This document shows positions 47,628 to 55,228 of a stretch of 64,000 nt of DNA, piece after piece. Below the pieces are notes generated by a model that was not told the DNA's origin, did not search any database, and saw only the letters and a list, made by a program, of their open reading frames with translations. The stretch's first letter is position 1, and each line of letters opens with the position of its first letter. Origin of the DNA: an uncultured Carboxylicivirga sp. (lineage in GTDB: Bacteria; Bacteroidota; Bacteroidia; Bacteroidales; Marinilabiliaceae). The stretch is from positions 1-64,000 of the forward strand of contig CANLLN010000007.1 in assembly GCA_947491945.1 (NCBI GenBank), given 5' to 3'. Both the position numbers and the translations under genes were made by a program.

Positions 47628-49544
47628 TTAAATCTTAAAGTGGCTTACCATTTCAGCTAAACGTTCCGCTTGTGCGTTCAGTTCTTCCGAAGTGCTGGCC
47701 AGTTCTTCCGCTGAGGCCGCATTACTTTGGGTGGTGTTGTTCACCAACTGGGCTGCGTTGGTTACTTGTTGAATATTTTGCGATTGCTCCTGCGAAGCGG
47801 CATCAATTTCAATACTACCTTCGTTTAGCTTCTCCAACATTGGGCTAATCTCCTGTATTAAAGCAGTGGCCTGCACGGCTGACGCGGCGCTCAGTTGTAT
47901 TTTATCGCTGATCTGTGCAGAGGCGATGGTCGTTGTTTCGCTTAGTTTTTGCACCTCGCGCGCCACCACAGCAAAACCTTTACCATGCTCGCCCGCACGA
48001 GCCGCTTCCACTGCGGCATTTAACGCCAGTATCTTAATATTTTGCGCAATGTCGTTTACGACTTTTACCTGGGCTACTACCTCGTGTTGCAGTTGAGTGG
48101 CAATCTTCGCTTGCTCGTTTATGCTATTCATTTTGTTGCTGGCATCCTTGGTGGATTGGCGAAACTCCTGACTCTTATCGGCATTCTGTTGAACACTGGC
48201 AGCCATTTCTTCCATATTACTGCTAATCTCCTCACTCACGCTGGCTTGCTCGGTGGTGGATGAGCTTAGTGTATGACTGCTACTGCTCACTTGCTGCGAT
48301 GCATTATTTATGTTTTCAGCACCGGTTTGCACATCACGTATAAATACGCTGAGCTTATCTGTCATGGTCTGAAAGCTATGTGCCAGCACGCCAATTTCAT
48401 TCTCCGAGTTGATCTCCATACGCTGGGTTAAATCGCCTTGTGCAATGGTTTCGCTGATCAGACTCAGTTGGGCCAGGGGTTTAATGTCGCGCTTAATCAT
48501 CCAGCGGATCAGGACAAAAAACATGGTGATACAGAGAAAGATGATGGGGATAATCCAATAGGCGGCTTCAATCACATTTTTAAATACATACTTGGCATGC
48601 ACTTTAGCCTGTAGCTGCCAGGGCAGCTGGTGTTCGTTTAGCCTTATGGGATTGGTAATGCATCCTACCGGGCCTTCAAACCAGTTGTCAACATGTCCTT
48701 TCTGAAGGTTTTCGATGCGTTCTTCCGGGTTGAGGCAGTTTACACTCAGGTTTTGTCCAATGAGTTCGGGCTGATGGTTGTGAGTTAGGTAGTTGCCTTT
48801 ATTGTCGAGTAGGGCTACGCTGGACTTTCCTTCATAAATATGTATTTTGTCACTTTCTTCGGTTAATGTTTGCAGGTTAATCATACAGCCAATTACACCT
48901 TTAAATTCAGCATCGATGATCAGAGGAAAAGCGATGCTGTATAGCTGTTGGGGCCGATCGTTAAGACTGTATGTAAAAGGGTTTGAAACAAATGACTTGA
49001 GTGTGGAGCGTGGCTGCTGGTAATAGAGAGCTTCTGAAAAGTCATCCATCCGTTTGTTCTGCTGCTTGGTCAATAAGCTTGTAAAATGCCCTGTTTCAGT
49101 ATAAAATTCTGATAAAGGAAGTATTCCCTGTCTATCCGGCTTATCCGCAAAGGTGCCCGGTTCCAGTATGGCAAATACAGCATCAATGCCATCGGTGCGT
49201 TTCATCAGTTTATCCAGATAATCCATAAAAAATACGGCACCACCATTCTTACCCTGGTCATTGGCCAGGTGGTAATTAAAGGCCTGACTTAACTCCTGCA
49301 TCGTTACATATTGTTTCGATAGGTGGTGTTCAATACGTGCGGCACCATTTCTTAGTGATAAATCACCGTACATAACACTGCTGTGCATAATTTCCTTCCG
49401 AAAGAAATAAAGCGTTACCGATAGAATAGCCAGTGTGGAGATGCTAAATAGCAGTATGGCATTATTGGTGATGCCTTTGGCAATTGATTTTTTACCCACA
49501 TCCGTTGATGGTGATTCTTTTCCTTTAAAATGTTTTCCAAACAT
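47628..49544 (-). CDS. Methyl-accepting chemotaxis protein
   Basis: A 638-residue transmembrane chemoreceptor. Membrane helices lie at about 27-48 and 318-340 and bracket a periplasmic sensor of about 265 residues, probably a dCache type ([21 protein letters not shown]). A HAMP domain (about 340-395) leads to the signalling domain, whose hairpin tip reads [19 protein letters not shown], followed by [13 protein letters not shown]. It would signal to CheA/CheW, which are not in the window. Chemoreceptors are rare in gut Bacteroides but occur in environmental Bacteroidetes. The ligand is unknown. Confidence 0.94.
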
Positions 49545-49752: not shown

Positions 49753-50154
49753 ATGAAGAAAGTAGTTGTGTCCAACGCCAATTATGAGCTTAGCGTTGAT
49801 GGAGAGAAGAATCGCCTATACATTTTGTGCAAAGGTTTTTGGGCAAAAGCGGAAGTGGTTGATCAATACGCTGCCGATCAGGCAACTGCATTGAGTCAGG
49901 TAAAAAGCGGCTTTACTGTGGTGGCCGATATGCGTGAGTTGAAAACACTGCCTTTGGACTTGGTGCCTAAGCAGCAAGAAACTCAGGTGGCACTGGCTCA
50001 AGCCGGTATGTTTAAGGTAGCAGAGATTGTGCCACAAAGTGCTATCGCAAAAAGTCAGTTGGGTAAGGTGACAAAGAGTTCAAACATGCCCAAGATGGAA
50101 TTTGCCGATTATGCAGAGGCCGAAGCGTGGCTTGATGCACAAACGAAGAACTAA
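49753..50154 (+). CDS. SpoIIAA/STAS-like small protein
   Basis: A 133-residue cytoplasmic protein with alternating strands and helices: YELSVDGEKNRLYILCKGFW, then GFTVVADMREL, then a helix ending in AYLDA-like FADYAEAEAWLDAQ. This layout resembles the SpoIIAA-like family (PF11964), but I recognise no catalytic motif. It is divergent from the chemoreceptor and ends 66 bp before a KAS III-like gene, separated from it by a terminator. Function is unknown. The family call is tentative. Confidence 0.55.
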   Translation: MKKVVVSNANYELSVDGEKNRLYILCKGFWAKAEVVDQYAADQATALSQVKSGFTVVADMRELKTLPLDLVPKQQETQVALAQAGMFKVAEIVPQSAIAKSQLGKVTKSSNMPKMEFADYAEAEAWLDAQTKN

Positions 50155-50166
50155 AGATGGTTGCAG

Positions 50167-50193
50167 AATCCTGCCCAAGGGCAGGATTTTTTT
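50167..50193 (+). terminator. Terminator after the SpoIIAA-like gene
   Basis: A 9-bp stem AATCCTGCC (50167-50175) with GGCAGGATT (50180-50188) and a seven-T run. It makes the upstream TTG start of the next frame unlikely. Confidence 0.85.
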
Positions 50194-50220: not shown

Positions 50221-51273
50221 ATGAAAAAGCTTGATCGCAAAATAACTTTATCTGATGCGCCCGTTGTTGTGCCCCAGATTCCTGTTGGAATATATGGTGT
50301 GGGGGCTTACCTGCCACCAATGATTTTGGGGAATGATGATTTTCGACAGCTTAGGCTAAGTGCTGCTGAAAAAATCTTTATTGATCAGATAGCCGGTGTT
50401 AAAAATAGGCATTATTCAGCCGATGAAGATATAAATGATATGGCTGTTAAAGCCGCAATGGATGCTTTGCAGCACAGTGAAACCGATGCGGCTAATGTAG
50501 ATTTAGTATTGGTAACAGGTGTTTCAAAGGATATGAGCCGATTAACACCGCCTAACTCAACGCTTATACAAACAAAAATTGGTGCAGCTCAGGCTGCCGC
50601 TATGAATATAGATCAGGGCTTTGCCGGTATGATTTACACACTTAGTGTAGCAGCTTCTTTCATTGCAAGTGGTTTTTATCAAACTGTACTGGTGGTTGCG
50701 TCAGAAACCATTCTGAAAAACACGCCTGGGGATAATATGAAAGCCTTATTGGTGGGGGAAGGGGCAGGTGCCTTTTTGCTAAAACGCGCAGACGTAGGTT
50801 TTGGTATTCAGGGCTTTCATCTTAGCTCATGGGAGGTTGATGACGAGGCCGGATACGTGAAGGTGATGGGTGGATGCAATAGCTTGTTTGACAAAGGCTA
50901 TGGTATTAAACCGTTTTTTACCGTGGGAGAGGGTAGTTTTGAAAAGCACAAAGCACGCACCGAGAAGTATATTCCGCAATCGGTGAAAAAAGTATTGAAG
51001 CACCTGGGGCATGAGGCACAGAACTATGATTTGTTTGTCTTTGGTCAGAAGTTTAAAGGGCTTAGTGAGGCATGGGCTCGTAACATAGGTATAGATTACG
51101 ATAGGGTACATGATACGATTGCCACTACAGCCTGCCTGGAAACAGCAAGTATACCTGTTATTATAAAAGATGCTATTGGAAAAGGAAGGTTAAATAAAGG
51201 CGATTATCTGATGCTGTCTGACTTTGGGTCCAATTGGGCCGTGGCAAGTTTAGCCATGCGTTGGTGCATTTAA
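50221..51273 (+). CDS. Ketoacyl synthase III homologue lacking the catalytic triad
   Basis: A 350-residue thiolase-fold protein from the ATG at 50221 (50194 is an alternative). Family blocks are IYGVGAYLPP, DLVLVTGVSKD, GEGAGAFLLKR and SDFGSNWAVASLAMRW. By eye, the catalytic Cys is Phe134 (in DQGFAGMIY), the His is Gly275 (in FVFGQKF) and the Asn is Cys305 (in TACLETASIP). It should not condense acyl chains by the normal route. An intact homologue converges on it 42 bp away. PqsB of the PqsB/PqsC pair is a known precedent for an inactive partner. The reading frame is intact, so it is probably functional in another way. Confidence 0.75.
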   Translation: MKKLDRKITLSDAPVVVPQIPVGIYGVGAYLPPMILGNDDFRQLRLSAAEKIFIDQIAGVKNRHYSADEDINDMAVKAAMDALQHSETDAANVDLVLVTGVSKDMSRLTPPNSTLIQTKIGAAQAAAMNIDQGFAGMIYTLSVAASFIASGFYQTVLVVASETILKNTPGDNMKALLVGEGAGAFLLKRADVGFGIQGFHLSSWEVDDEAGYVKVMGGCNSLFDKGYGIKPFFTVGEGSFEKHKARTEKYIPQSVKKVLKHLGHEAQNYDLFVFGQKFKGLSEAWARNIGIDYDRVHDTIATTACLETASIPVIIKDAIGKGRLNKGDYLMLSDFGSNWAVASLAMRWCI

Positions 51274-51280
51274 ATATAAT

Positions 51281-51317
51281 GGGGTGCTACCGGCCAGATA
51301 ACACCCCGTGATTTTTT
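51281..51317 (+). terminator. Terminator between the convergent ketosynthase genes
   Basis: GGGGTG (51281-51286) pairs with CACCCC (51302-51307) and six T residues follow at 51312-51317, touching the stop codon of the convergent gene. Confidence 0.65.
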
Positions 51318-52515
51318 ATTGGCAGTTGGTAATTAATTGGGCTGGAATTTTCATCACTAAAGCGATGTGGTTCTCTCCAGCACCGGATGAGGCAATTAGT
51401 ACATTGTCACCAGCCTTGATTCTTCCATTTTCAATGGCTTCAAGTAAATTAACGCCGGCGCTGCACGTGGCTATGTTAGCGTATTTTTCAAAGGTCTGGA
51501 AAAACTTATCCTCAGGAATATTAATGGCCTCGCGCCAGGCATTCCCAGCCCAGGCTACCGGTTGATGTGTAACAAAAAAGTCAATATTATCAATTTGATA
51601 ATTGATTTTATTAAGTGTTTGGTCAACAGCGTATTTAAGATCAGATGGTGCATTTTTTGCAATGCTTTTAAGGGCATCCTGATTCAGAAAAGTTACAAAA
51701 TGTTGCTTGCAGTCAGATCCCAGTTCAGCCCGTTTAAATAGCATGGGTGAGCGCTCGGTAAAAACAACTCCATCATGGCGGTCGCCGTGGCTGTTTGAGA
51801 AGGAGCTTAAATAGCCTTCGCCTTCATCTACATTGGTAATTATACCTGCCAGAGCAGCATCGCCGGTGTCAACACTCCAGTAGGTTGATTTATCGTTGAT
51901 AATGCTATCGAGGATGCTGCTAACGATCAAGACCTTTTTCTTGATTCCGGTTTTCACCAAAGCCGTTGCTACCTCCATCATGGTTACAAAAGTGGAACAG
52001 CAGGTATCTATCGAGTAGGCACCAGCATTGCGCAGTCCAAGCTTCTCCTGTATCAAAGAGGCGTTGGTGGGCAAAGGTCGATCGGGTACCTGAGAGTGAG
52101 AAAGAACCAGATCAATTTCATCCGGATCAATGCCCGCATTGATGATCGCTAGTGCACCAGCAATGGTTTCTGCGTCTGATGGTAGCATGGGATGGGGTAC
52201 TACAGATTCCTTTACGGAAATCGGATCCAAAGGCACACGGCGGCGCTCAGTAGTTCCTTGGAAAGGATTGGAGCGTTTTTTTTCCGGCAGACTTTTTACC
52301 CAGGCTTCATACCATGGCTTGCTTTCCCAACCGTCGTAGTTGGTTTCAATGGTGCCGGGTAACTGGCCGCTGCGTTCGATATCGCTTATGTAATCAGGGT
52401 GCAATTGGGTATGCTTCCTTAAGTATTGCACTAACTTTTCTGCTTGATTTTCTTTTAATTGTTTAGCAGGAAGGTAGCCCCCTAAACTGATTAATCCTAC
52501 ATGTTTATTTTCCAT
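51316..52515 (-). CDS. Ketoacyl-ACP synthase III family protein with intact triad
   Basis: A 399-residue thiolase-fold enzyme. The catalytic residues are all visible: Cys173 in DTCCSTFV, His317 in THQPVAWAG and Asn347 in KYANIATCSAG. The N-terminal half has a GGYLPAKQ strand and a long insert (about residues 45-95) not present in FabH, so a housekeeping FabH role is less likely. Such proteins (DarB-like, OleA-like, PqsC-like) join acyl chains in specialised pathways. No ACP, reductase or aromatase gene adjoins it. It converges with a triad-less homologue, and a heterodimer is possible. Confidence 0.85.
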   Translation of the reverse strand: MENKHVGLISLGGYLPAKQLKENQAEKLVQYLRKHTQLHPDYISDIERSGQLPGTIETNYDGWESKPWYEAWVKSLPEKKRSNPFQGTTERRRVPLDPISVKESVVPHPMLPSDAETIAGALAIINAGIDPDEIDLVLSHSQVPDRPLPTNASLIQEKLGLRNAGAYSIDTCCSTFVTMMEVATALVKTGIKKKVLIVSSILDSIINDKSTYWSVDTGDAALAGIITNVDEGEGYLSSFSNSHGDRHDGVVFTERSPMLFKRAELGSDCKQHFVTFLNQDALKSIAKNAPSDLKYAVDQTLNKINYQIDNIDFFVTHQPVAWAGNAWREAINIPEDKFFQTFEKYANIATCSAGVNLLEAIENGRIKAGDNVLIASSGAGENHIALVMKIPAQLITNCQ

Positions 52516-53039: not shown

Positions 53040-54002
53040 ATGAATTTGAAATTTTTTTTATGGTGTTTAACAGGCTTCGCTAGTATGCAGCTTGGCCTTG
53101 CACAGCAACAAGCAGGGGAGCAAGTGCAATATGGAGATATGGATTCATGGTGGTCGCGTTACGTCAGGGAGTCGCGTTTTATAGGGGGGGCAGAGGTAAT
53201 TTATTACGAGCCGGGTCCCGATGATGCGGCTTATCAAAAACGTGATCAGCCCATTGAGCATCTTACGCCTTGGGCCAGTTCCAATGTAAGAGCCGAAGTG
53301 GGTGTTACGGCTGCAAATCAGTCTGTTTTTCATGAGCCCCGGGGTAATGGATATTGCGCCCGACTGGAGACGAATCTAAAAAAGGTGGTGGTACTGGGTA
53401 TTGTCAACGTAAAGGCGATAGCCTCAGGAAGTCTGTTTACAGGGCGTATGGTCGACCCGATTACTGAACCTGATGATCCGCGCCACAATACACTGATGGG
53501 TATACCGTTTACGAGTGCTCCCGATGCTTTATCTTTTGACTATAAGTTGATTGCCGGTCAAAAGCGTTTGCAGGCTACCGGTGGTTTTCGAGTGCGAGAA
53601 GTAGCCGGACCCGATTGTGCCGAAGTGTACATGATATTACAGAGCCGCACGGAAGACAGTGATGGTAAGCTGCATGTTAAACGCGTTGGTACCGCCTGGC
53701 AGCGCCTGGAGAAGACCACTGATGGCTGGGTGAATGACTACCGTATGCCAGTTATTTATGGAGATGCAAGGCAGCATGTGACGTACCGCCCATTCATGGA
53801 TTTGATCGGAGATGATGATCCATATTACGCGCTCAATAGCCGGGGGCAAAGTGTTTCGTATGTTGAGGAAGGCTGGAGCGATGACAAAGAGGCCATAACG
53901 CATGTTATTATTCTTTTTTCGGCCAGTTATGAGGGCGGTGCCTACATTGGTGCGCCCGATAGTAAGTTATGGATTGATAATGTAAGGTTAGTATATAACT
54001 GA
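53040..54002 (+). CDS. PCMD-domain secreted protein
   Basis: A 320-residue protein with a signal peptide (residues 1-22, cut near GLAQ). Nearly all the mature part matches the putative carbohydrate metabolism domain (PCMD): GNGYCARLETNLKKVVVLGI, GSLFTGRM, MGIPFTSAPDALSFDYK and a C-terminal IDNVRLVYN. The fold is a beta-sandwich found in Bacteroidetes surface proteins; no reaction is known. It is 116 bp upstream of a sulfotransferase gene. A second PCMD protein is at 55367 on the other strand. Confidence 0.75.
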   Translation: MNLKFFLWCLTGFASMQLGLAQQQAGEQVQYGDMDSWWSRYVRESRFIGGAEVIYYEPGPDDAAYQKRDQPIEHLTPWASSNVRAEVGVTAANQSVFHEPRGNGYCARLETNLKKVVVLGIVNVKAIASGSLFTGRMVDPITEPDDPRHNTLMGIPFTSAPDALSFDYKLIAGQKRLQATGGFRVREVAGPDCAEVYMILQSRTEDSDGKLHVKRVGTAWQRLEKTTDGWVNDYRMPVIYGDARQHVTYRPFMDLIGDDDPYYALNSRGQSVSYVEEGWSDDKEAITHVIILFSASYEGGAYIGAPDSKLWIDNVRLVYN

Positions 54003-54118: not shown

Positions 54119-55228
54119 ATGTTTAAGTTAGATTTTAATAAGTTGCCGGTCACCCCTCTCTTTGGTAGTCGCCTGGCTAATTTTAAAGCTGTATGCCGTC
54201 ATCAGCAGATTGATAAGCCTTATCGTCTGAAGTATGTACTCAGTCGTGGTATATCAGCTTTGCTGAGTATTACTTATCCAATCGAAAATTACTATTACAA
54301 GAAAAAGGTTGAACCCATGGCGCTGGAGGATGATCCCGTATTTATCCTTGGTCATTGGCGCAGCGGCACTACCTTTTTGCACAATGTGCTGGCAAAAGAC
54401 CCACAGTTTGGTTACAACACTACTTACCAAACCATCTTTACCAATGCCATGGTGTGGGGACAGCCCTTTTTTAAGGCCATAATGAAGCAAATTATGCCTG
54501 ATCGGCGCCCCACTGACAACTTGGAGCTAAAGGTTGATCAGCCACAAGAGGAGGAGTTTGCCTTTAGCAATGTGATGCCGGTTAGCTTCTATAATTTTTG
54601 GTTTTTCCCACGGGAGACCATGAATTATTGTGATAAATACCTGTTGTTTAATGATATTACTGATTATGAGAAAGAGCAGTTTAAAACAGAGTTTATCCGA
54701 TTGATAAAAACATCGCTCTACAATACCGGCGGAAAACGTTTCTTGTCCAAGAATCCGCCTCACACAGGGCGCGTAAAAGATTTGCTTGAGATTTTCCCCA
54801 ATGCCAAGTTTATTTATCTGGTACGCAACCCCTACACGGTGTTTGAGTCAACGCGCGACTATTTCAGTAATGTGATTAAGCCCCTTAAACTTCAGGAGTT
54901 TAGTGATGCCGAGCTGGAGCAAAATATTCTTCGTGTTTATCAGCTGATGGCCGAGGCCTATGAAAAAGATAAGCAATTGATACCCCATGGTAACTTGTTT
55001 GAGTTGCGCTTCGAGGATTTTGAGAAGGATCCTTATAATTTAACGAAATCGATTTATTCCGAGCTGGGCATTGATGGCTTCGATGCGGCTTCGCATTCTA
55101 TTAAAGCCTATATTGATAACAAAAAGGGGCATAAGAAAAATGCCTATGCTTACGCATCCGATACCATACAGAAAGTAAATGCCAATTGGAAATTTGCGCT
55201 TGAAAAATGGAATTATCCACTTTTGTAA
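54119..55228 (+). CDS. Sulfotransferase family protein
   Basis: A 369-residue protein that would transfer sulfate from PAPS to an unknown acceptor. The 5'-phosphosulfate loop is GHWRSGTTFLH (residues 78-88, Arg81 to Thr85), and the 3'-phosphate site is YLVRNPYTVFESTRDYF with Arg236 and Ser244. There is no signal peptide, so it is cytoplasmic or membrane-associated. Length is above cytosolic sulfotransferases because of an N-terminal 70 residues with a hydrophobic patch. Acceptors in Bacteroidetes relatives include sterols and lipids, but nothing here fixes the substrate. Confidence 0.87.
   Translation: MFKLDFNKLPVTPLFGSRLANFKAVCRHQQIDKPYRLKYVLSRGISALLSITYPIENYYYKKKVEPMALEDDPVFILGHWRSGTTFLHNVLAKDPQFGYNTTYQTIFTNAMVWGQPFFKAIMKQIMPDRRPTDNLELKVDQPQEEEFAFSNVMPVSFYNFWFFPRETMNYCDKYLLFNDITDYEKEQFKTEFIRLIKTSLYNTGGKRFLSKNPPHTGRVKDLLEIFPNAKFIYLVRNPYTVFESTRDYFSNVIKPLKLQEFSDAELEQNILRVYQLMAEAYEKDKQLIPHGNLFELRFEDFEKDPYNLTKSIYSELGIDGFDAASHSIKAYIDNKKGHKKNAYAYASDTIQKVNANWKFALEKWNYPLL

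Follow-up and report, generated by a model that had tools for sequence, protein, structure and literature searches.

Two adjacent, convergent reading frames in the window (the whole 64,000-nucleotide stretch of Carboxylicivirga DNA analyzed here) encode a pair of ketosynthase III (KSIII) proteins, one of which (P2) keeps a complete Cys-His-Asn catalytic triad while the other (P1) has lost all three residues (Table 1). Because triad-less P1 is kept beside intact P2 in relatives, the pair suggests, by analogy, a two-part enzyme resembling the maker of the Pseudomonas quinolone signal. The interpretation that we favor, with a confidence just on the positive side of even, is that P2 and P1 form a PqsBC-like heterodimeric KSIII, in which P2 would be the catalytic subunit and P1 a pocket-shaping pseudo-subunit, and which would probably use arylacetyl-CoA. 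As a real, non-random and conserved pseudo-enzyme partner, P1 may work in the way that PqsB does.

Table 1. Coordinates of the P1 and P2 genes and of adjoining features in the window.
Feature	Position	Strand	Description
Methyl-accepting chemotaxis protein	47628..49544	-	PDC sensor, HAMP, MCP signaling domain
STAS (SpoIIAA-like) small protein	49753..50154	+	133 aa; 66 bp from P1
Terminator-like hairpin, STAS gene/P1 gap	50165..50190	+	weak
P1, KSIII-fold pseudo-subunit	50221..51273	+	350 aa; triad positions Phe134/Gly275/Cys305
Terminator-like hairpin between P1 and P2 stop codons	51281..51307	-	11 pairs; weak
P2, catalytic KSIII	51316..52515	-	399 aa, extended N-terminal region; Cys173/His317/Asn347

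The assignment of the catalytic positions rests on phmmer comparison with FabH structures and on an alignment of 83 KSIII rows, comprising 14 P1, 43 P2, 6 of a triad-bearing second KSIII and 20 FabH-type proteins, the last drawn from the same family as the window. Both place Phe134, Gly275 and Cys305 of P1 in the Cys, His and Asn columns and find the triad present in P2, bearing out the residues that an earlier note on this DNA had named from the sequence; proper alignment of the 50221 protein, to which that note had looked for a challenge to its claim, restored no catalytic Cys. The triad is wholly lost in all 14 P1 rows, where Cys is replaced by Phe (12 rows) or Tyr (2), His by Gly or Ala, and Asn by Cys or Ala. 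All three residues are kept in 43/43 P2 rows, in 20/20 FabH-type rows and in each of the six rows of the triad-bearing second KSIII. Some caution attaches to a Cys two residues before the lost catalytic one, which is found in 7 of the 14 P1 rows and is replaced by Gln132 in P1 of the window. A further distinction between the groups lies at the gate position, the column of Phe87 of E. coli FabH, a residue that in FabH dimers extends into the active site of the partner: this residue is Thr, Ala or Cys in all 14 P1 rows, Val, Ile or Leu in all 43 P2 rows, and Phe in 15 of the 20 FabH-type rows, with an acidic residue in none of the P1 and P2 rows. The alignment omits loci L071, L076, L092, L100, L102, L105, L112 and L114, and uses one copy only of those present twice (L078, L079 and L082-L084). 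Reading frames of at most 250 residues or at most 150 bits were likewise omitted, among them the second KSIII of L103, which is cut.

The reading frames of P1 and P2 are both intact in the window, and each protein matches the Pfam families ACP_syn_III and ACP_syn_III_C above cut-off. The description of P1 as intact in frame and fold also holds, as the AlphaFold model of the 350-codon product is a complete KSIII fold (pLDDT 83.7, pTM 0.87). The alignment of relatives begins at ATG 50221, which is the better choice of start, as in the earlier note; the first-listed start, TTG 50161, lies just 5' of the hairpin at 50165-50190 and was dropped. Two further KSIII proteins of the window genome were observed: a FabH-like protein on contig C15, which gives a better match to the KSIII C-domain than either P1 or P2, and a fourth KSIII (contig C19, locus L004) with an intact triad and a long branch, which falls outside the P1 and P2 clades.

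In the proposed mechanism, an acyl group, probably from arylacetyl-CoA, would be loaded onto Cys173 of P2 and then condensed with a second substrate. P1, having nothing to acylate at the catalytic position, would stand in for the second catalytic protomer and supply the interface side of the P2 pocket with a small residue in place of the gating Phe of FabH, and the replacement of one P2 by P1 would give a wider pocket. The product would likely be a small metabolite, its synthesis coupled to the neighboring STAS-like protein and chemoreceptor. Heterodimerization of P1 and P2 is reasonably probable; a pocket-shaping role for P1 is evenly balanced; arylacetyl-CoA as donor is a tentative assignment, and coupling to signaling is doubtful.

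Within the family (71 genomes), P1 and P2 occur in the same five genomes and neither is found without the other, the relatives being 45-47% (P1) and 60% (P2) identical and the next-best matches by E-value 26% and 29%, respectively. Across the order (393 genomes, E<=1e-55), P1 was found in four genomes and P2 in eight, all four among the eight, with G149, G252, G263 and G329 having P2 only; neither the family nor the order sample contained a genome with P1 but not P2. The pair thus does co-occur in relatives, a point on which the earlier note had allowed its proposal to fail. Among 395 genomes of the class, P2 is found in the window genome only, and the P1 profile at 1e-45 matches 66 genomes, with 550.8 bits for the window and at most 186.5 for the rest; if this score gap alone is trusted, the other 65 matches would be ordinary FabH-type proteins and P1, likewise, would be confined to the window genome. 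The three samples overlap, and the window genome is in all of them. A profile scan of genome contigs recovered 43 P2 loci, compared with no locus by single-sequence scan. P2 loci occur in Bacteroidales, Marinilabilia, Prolixibacteraceae, Myxococcota, Deltaproteobacteria, Aminicenantes, Spirochaetales, Acidobacteriota, Planctomycetota, Obscuribacterales, Endozoicomonas and one 'Salinisphaera', and in a Clostridia branch at 39-43% identity. In a plasmid search, none of the 269 records returned reached 60% identity, and among the best 10 of the 269 the top-ranked one was 31% identical.

The earlier note had remarked on a lack of known partners, which the wider comparison contradicts, since PaaK-type ligases, indolepyruvate oxidoreductase (IOR) genes, chemoreceptors and STAS-like proteins recur across the family. 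Neighbors were tallied for 49 P2 loci (the 43 profile-scan loci, the window and five others) within 10 kb where the contig allowed; thresholds for the tally were chosen after the scores had been seen, part of the loci had also served to train the models, and the background rate comes from the window genome only. STAS-like genes lie near 18 of the 49 loci. The STAS-like protein of the window, which has a predicted STAS fold (pLDDT 91), belongs to the P1/P2 theme; the profile of its family has no other match in the window genome (E<=0.001). Given the hairpin at 50165, its gene and P1 may be separate transcripts, with the qualification for both hairpins in Table 1 that the four terminator-like hairpins of the region are as many as in shuffles (mean 3.8). 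The suggestion that the SpoIIAA-like protein takes part together with the sulfotransferase at 54119 is upheld for the former and not for the latter, which has no blastp match in 14 relatives' loci or in the 43 profile-scan loci. The PCMD (putative carbohydrate metabolism domain) protein at 53040-54002 of the window, likewise without a blastp match in these loci, was also rejected as a part. Chemoreceptors are found within 10 kb in 13/49 loci (10 of the 19 from Bacteroidota), and that of the window is 50% identical to one beside the Marinilabilia operon. The window genome, of 4.9 Mb, has about 18 chemoreceptors (21 matches, from which 3 second pieces are subtracted) as well as CheW-domain genes, and about 0.07 chemoreceptors per 20 kb would be expected by chance if other genomes are alike.

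Enzymes that could supply an acyl-CoA are the other recurrent neighbors. A PaaK-type ligase lies directly upstream of P2-P1 in three loci, all from Marinilabilia, with scores of 569-578 bits for the three proteins against a TIGR02155 equivalog cut-off of 646.3. IOR genes accompany P2 in 7/49 loci: IorA adjoins P2 in L108 and L111 of Clostridia (686 and 790 bits, cut-off 651), a fused IOR lies directly upstream of P2 in L097 (1025 bits, cut-off 816) with similar genes in L098-L100 (L097 being the one scanned), and the myxococcal locus L103 has a divergent IOR-like gene that at 339 bits is below cut-off. PaaK and IOR both yield arylacetyl-CoA, and the fact that two unrelated supply enzymes make it points to this one kind of donor. 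The PaaK-type ligase is absent from the window genome, where the best match has 25% identity and 43 bits; unlinked IorA/IorB-like genes are present there (IorA 515 bits, cut-off 651) and are a possible substitute.

The same neighbors can be read as a sign that the pair serves amino-acid fermentation or catabolism, carrying out a thiolase-like or condensing step on an amino-acid-derived acyl-CoA with no signaling role. IOR and PaaK are ordinary enzymes of amino-acid metabolism, the glutamate mutase E chain is found in 11/49 loci, and the reading frames around L074 include biotin-carboxylase-like, enoyl-CoA-hydratase-like and 2-oxoacid-oxidoreductase-like ones, as judged by eye and only from the first residues of each. 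This explanation can accommodate a heterodimer, but it leaves the chemoreceptors and the STAS-like genes unexplained and sits poorly with the rare distribution of P2, found in one of 395 class genomes; we consider it not very likely.

P2 is by no means always accompanied by P1, which lies within 10 kb of P2 in 11/49 loci, all from Bacteroidota. The 19 Bacteroidota P2 loci include these 11, three of a glutamate-mutase type instead and three cut at contig ends, and no second KSIII was found in the flank examined of L072 and L079. In Clostridia, a second KSIII, whether triad-less or triad-bearing, is lacking from all 11 loci. Outside Bacteroidota and Clostridia, 8 of the 19 loci have a second KSIII of the triad-bearing type, and the triad is kept in all six of these that were read. 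Since P2 also occurs without P1, it is probably able, on the evidence of gene content, to work as a homodimer; its frequent occurrence without P1 and the retention of the triad in non-Bacteroidota partners (6 of 8 loci) argue that a dead partner is not needed for its basic reaction.

Several features of these other loci deserve mention in their own right. In a second conserved operon type without P1, P2 is accompanied by a VOC protein, an SDR, a SnoaL-sized protein, a B12-binding protein and the glutamate mutase E chain (L070, L071, L086, L087, L088, L089, L091, L092, L094, L095 and L096); the SnoaL-sized protein was named by eye, and its L070 copy has no significant Pfam match. Between two P2 operons of L089 (5147-9335), three STAS-like genes are interspersed with an approximately 490-residue reading frame, the start of which resembles, by eye, a B12-binding radical-SAM protein, and a similar one lies just before the STAS-like genes. 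In L097 (11216-12856) and L098-L100, the second KSIII carries a fused C-terminal extension of some 190 residues, which in L097 has no Pfam match; the triad is intact in the copies read from L097-L099. The fused IOR precedes this gene, and in L097-L099 an SDR comes next. The L097 record is named Salinisphaera sp. G21_0, and its second KSIII is nearly identical to that of an Endozoicomonas locus (terminal branches of 0.007 and 0.03); the record may therefore be misnamed, or a transfer may have taken place recently. A single event seems to underlie the four Endozoicomonas/'Salinisphaera' loci, of which the two kept in the tree are nearly identical.

The loci without P1 (those of Clostridia, those of the glutamate-mutase type, and L072 and L079) also lend themselves to a different explanation, namely that P2 is homodimeric and P1 has a role of its own in the same pathway, for instance as an acyl- or ligand-binding sensor or a chaperone that reuses the KSIII fold. 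The complete KSIII fold predicted for P1 by itself also speaks for this. Against this stand the lack of any P1 without P2 in the family and order genomes searched, the usual occurrence of FabH-like enzymes as dimers (PMC4807248), and the intimate arrangement of the two genes. The P2 and P1 frames overlap by 20 bases in L075, L076 and L080, and the gap between them is 4-5 bases in L065, in L067 and in one of the L081 pairs, figures that are approximate because relatives' starts were taken as the first possible in each frame. We judge a separate role for P1 to be rather improbable.

With regard to gene order, 10 of the 12 same-contig pairs (window, L065, L067, L074, L075, L076 with P1 cut, L080, L081 twice, L082, L083 and L084) have the tandem order P2→P1, that of L074 has the reverse tandem order P1→P2, and only that of the window is convergent; the P1 copy of L066 (G162) and the pairs of G029 and G342, at contig ends, are not in the count. 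The convergent order, to which the earlier note had attached meaning, is real in the window and, being seen in one pair of 12 that are otherwise mostly P2→P1, is a local rearrangement; it was rejected as a functional feature.

A quick tree, built from 58 of the 83 rows, separates P1, P2, the FabH-type proteins and the triad-bearing partners into one group each; P1 is a single clade with SH-aLRT 100, and the relation of P1 to the triad-bearing second KSIII has a support of 3. Of eight locus pairs compared, only the two copies in L081 were measurable, with dN/dS of 0.10 for both P1 and P2; in the other seven, synonymous sites are saturated and pN of P1 is 0.13-0.36. The L081 ratio and the pN values elsewhere count in favor of purifying selection on P1. 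In the L075/L080/L081 and G162/G348 comparisons the conservation of P1 is close to that of P2, in Marinilabilia it is lower (73-77% versus 81-85% for P2), and the distances of P1 and P2 correlate (r 0.84), which shared ancestry alone could give. P1 of the window is the most divergent, being 47% identical to that of L074, compared with 71% for P2. Of 60 residues that never vary among the other 13 P1 rows it retains 52, the smallest share in the set of 14; each other row keeps all but 0-4 of its invariant residues. Because the pair is convergent, the ligase absent and P1 most divergent, the P1/P2 system may be altered or relaxed in the window genome. That P1 of the window is relaxed or decaying, a remnant of an inversion that also cost the ligase, would account for these three features, including the eight changed residues, but is unlikely in view of its intact frame, the 52 invariant residues that it keeps, and the STAS gene and chemoreceptor retained beside it.

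The heterodimeric reading, if true, would make P2/P1 a second, probably independent case of a KSIII with a dead subunit, in Bacteroidota; PqsBC is a structurally described heterodimer of this kind (PMC4807248). A search of open-licence PMC papers found no description of the P1/P2 family. A partner that is dead, alive or absent within one family would, if this holds, allow a comparative look at the role of a dead ketosynthase subunit, and from the linked chemoreceptor and STAS genes one can predict, in a form open to testing, that Bacteroidales, Clostridia and Endozoicomonas make a new signal molecule. More speculatively, and with low probability, the family could be a widespread, undescribed small-molecule system, in which the metabolite that a P2-type KSIII produces would derive from an arylacetyl group and the partner would be exchangeable: dead in Bacteroidales, live in Myxococcota and Endozoicomonas, and missing in Clostridia. 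The linked chemoreceptor and STAS protein would then sense this product, a chemotactic or quorum signal from a separately evolved PqsABC analogue.

Compared with FabH (KAS III), P1 and P2 share the fold and both Pfam domains, and P2 the triad, but both fall below the subfamily cut-offs of PRK09352 (249) and TIGR00747 (292), with 165 and 154 bits for P1 and 135 and 130 bits for P2, and P2 has a long N-terminal region. OleA, CorB and MxnB likewise have the KSIII fold, and an SDR is found near some P2 loci. In OleA, the partner subunit contributes an acidic residue close to the gate loop; the gate column has no acidic residue in the 14 P1 and 43 P2 rows, an apparent difference seen in an alignment of P1, P2, triad-bearing second KSIII and FabH-type rows. 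The 49753 protein shares its fold with SpoIIAA, DUF3478 and SiaC, its best Foldseek hits being DUF3478 (2q3l) and SiaC with RsbS and SpoIIAA also among the top hits, but the E-values are only about 1e-3 and it has no Pfam match at 0.001.

The closest parallel in logic is PqsC/PqsB, and here the proposal of the earlier note that an active KSIII is encoded together with a triad-less one is supported. In both systems the genes of the two subunits are neighbors and the dead one is without all three residues; PqsB lacks the whole triad and pairs with PqsC, and the cavity of PqsBC extends toward PqsB (PMC4807248). The C-terminal half of PqsB is short, having 124 residues and two helices, and PqsC has a Val where P2 keeps Asn347 (PMC4807248); by contrast, the AlphaFold model of P1 is full length in this half, with more helices than two. 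The closest structures to the P1 model are those of FabH (VIA Z 43.4 over 306 residues for A. aeolicus FabH), compared with Z 40.8 for a PqsBC chain of PqsC's length, and chains of PqsB length are absent among the 50 structure matches listed for P1, which excludes nothing. The ligase beside P2-P1 is PaaK-type and the neighbors include STAS and MCP genes, in which the systems differ, and genes of a quinolone pathway did not come to notice in the loci as compared here, but a CoA ligase upstream of P2-P1 in Marinilabilia recalls PqsA, presumably its counterpart in the alkylquinolone system of Pseudomonas aeruginosa.
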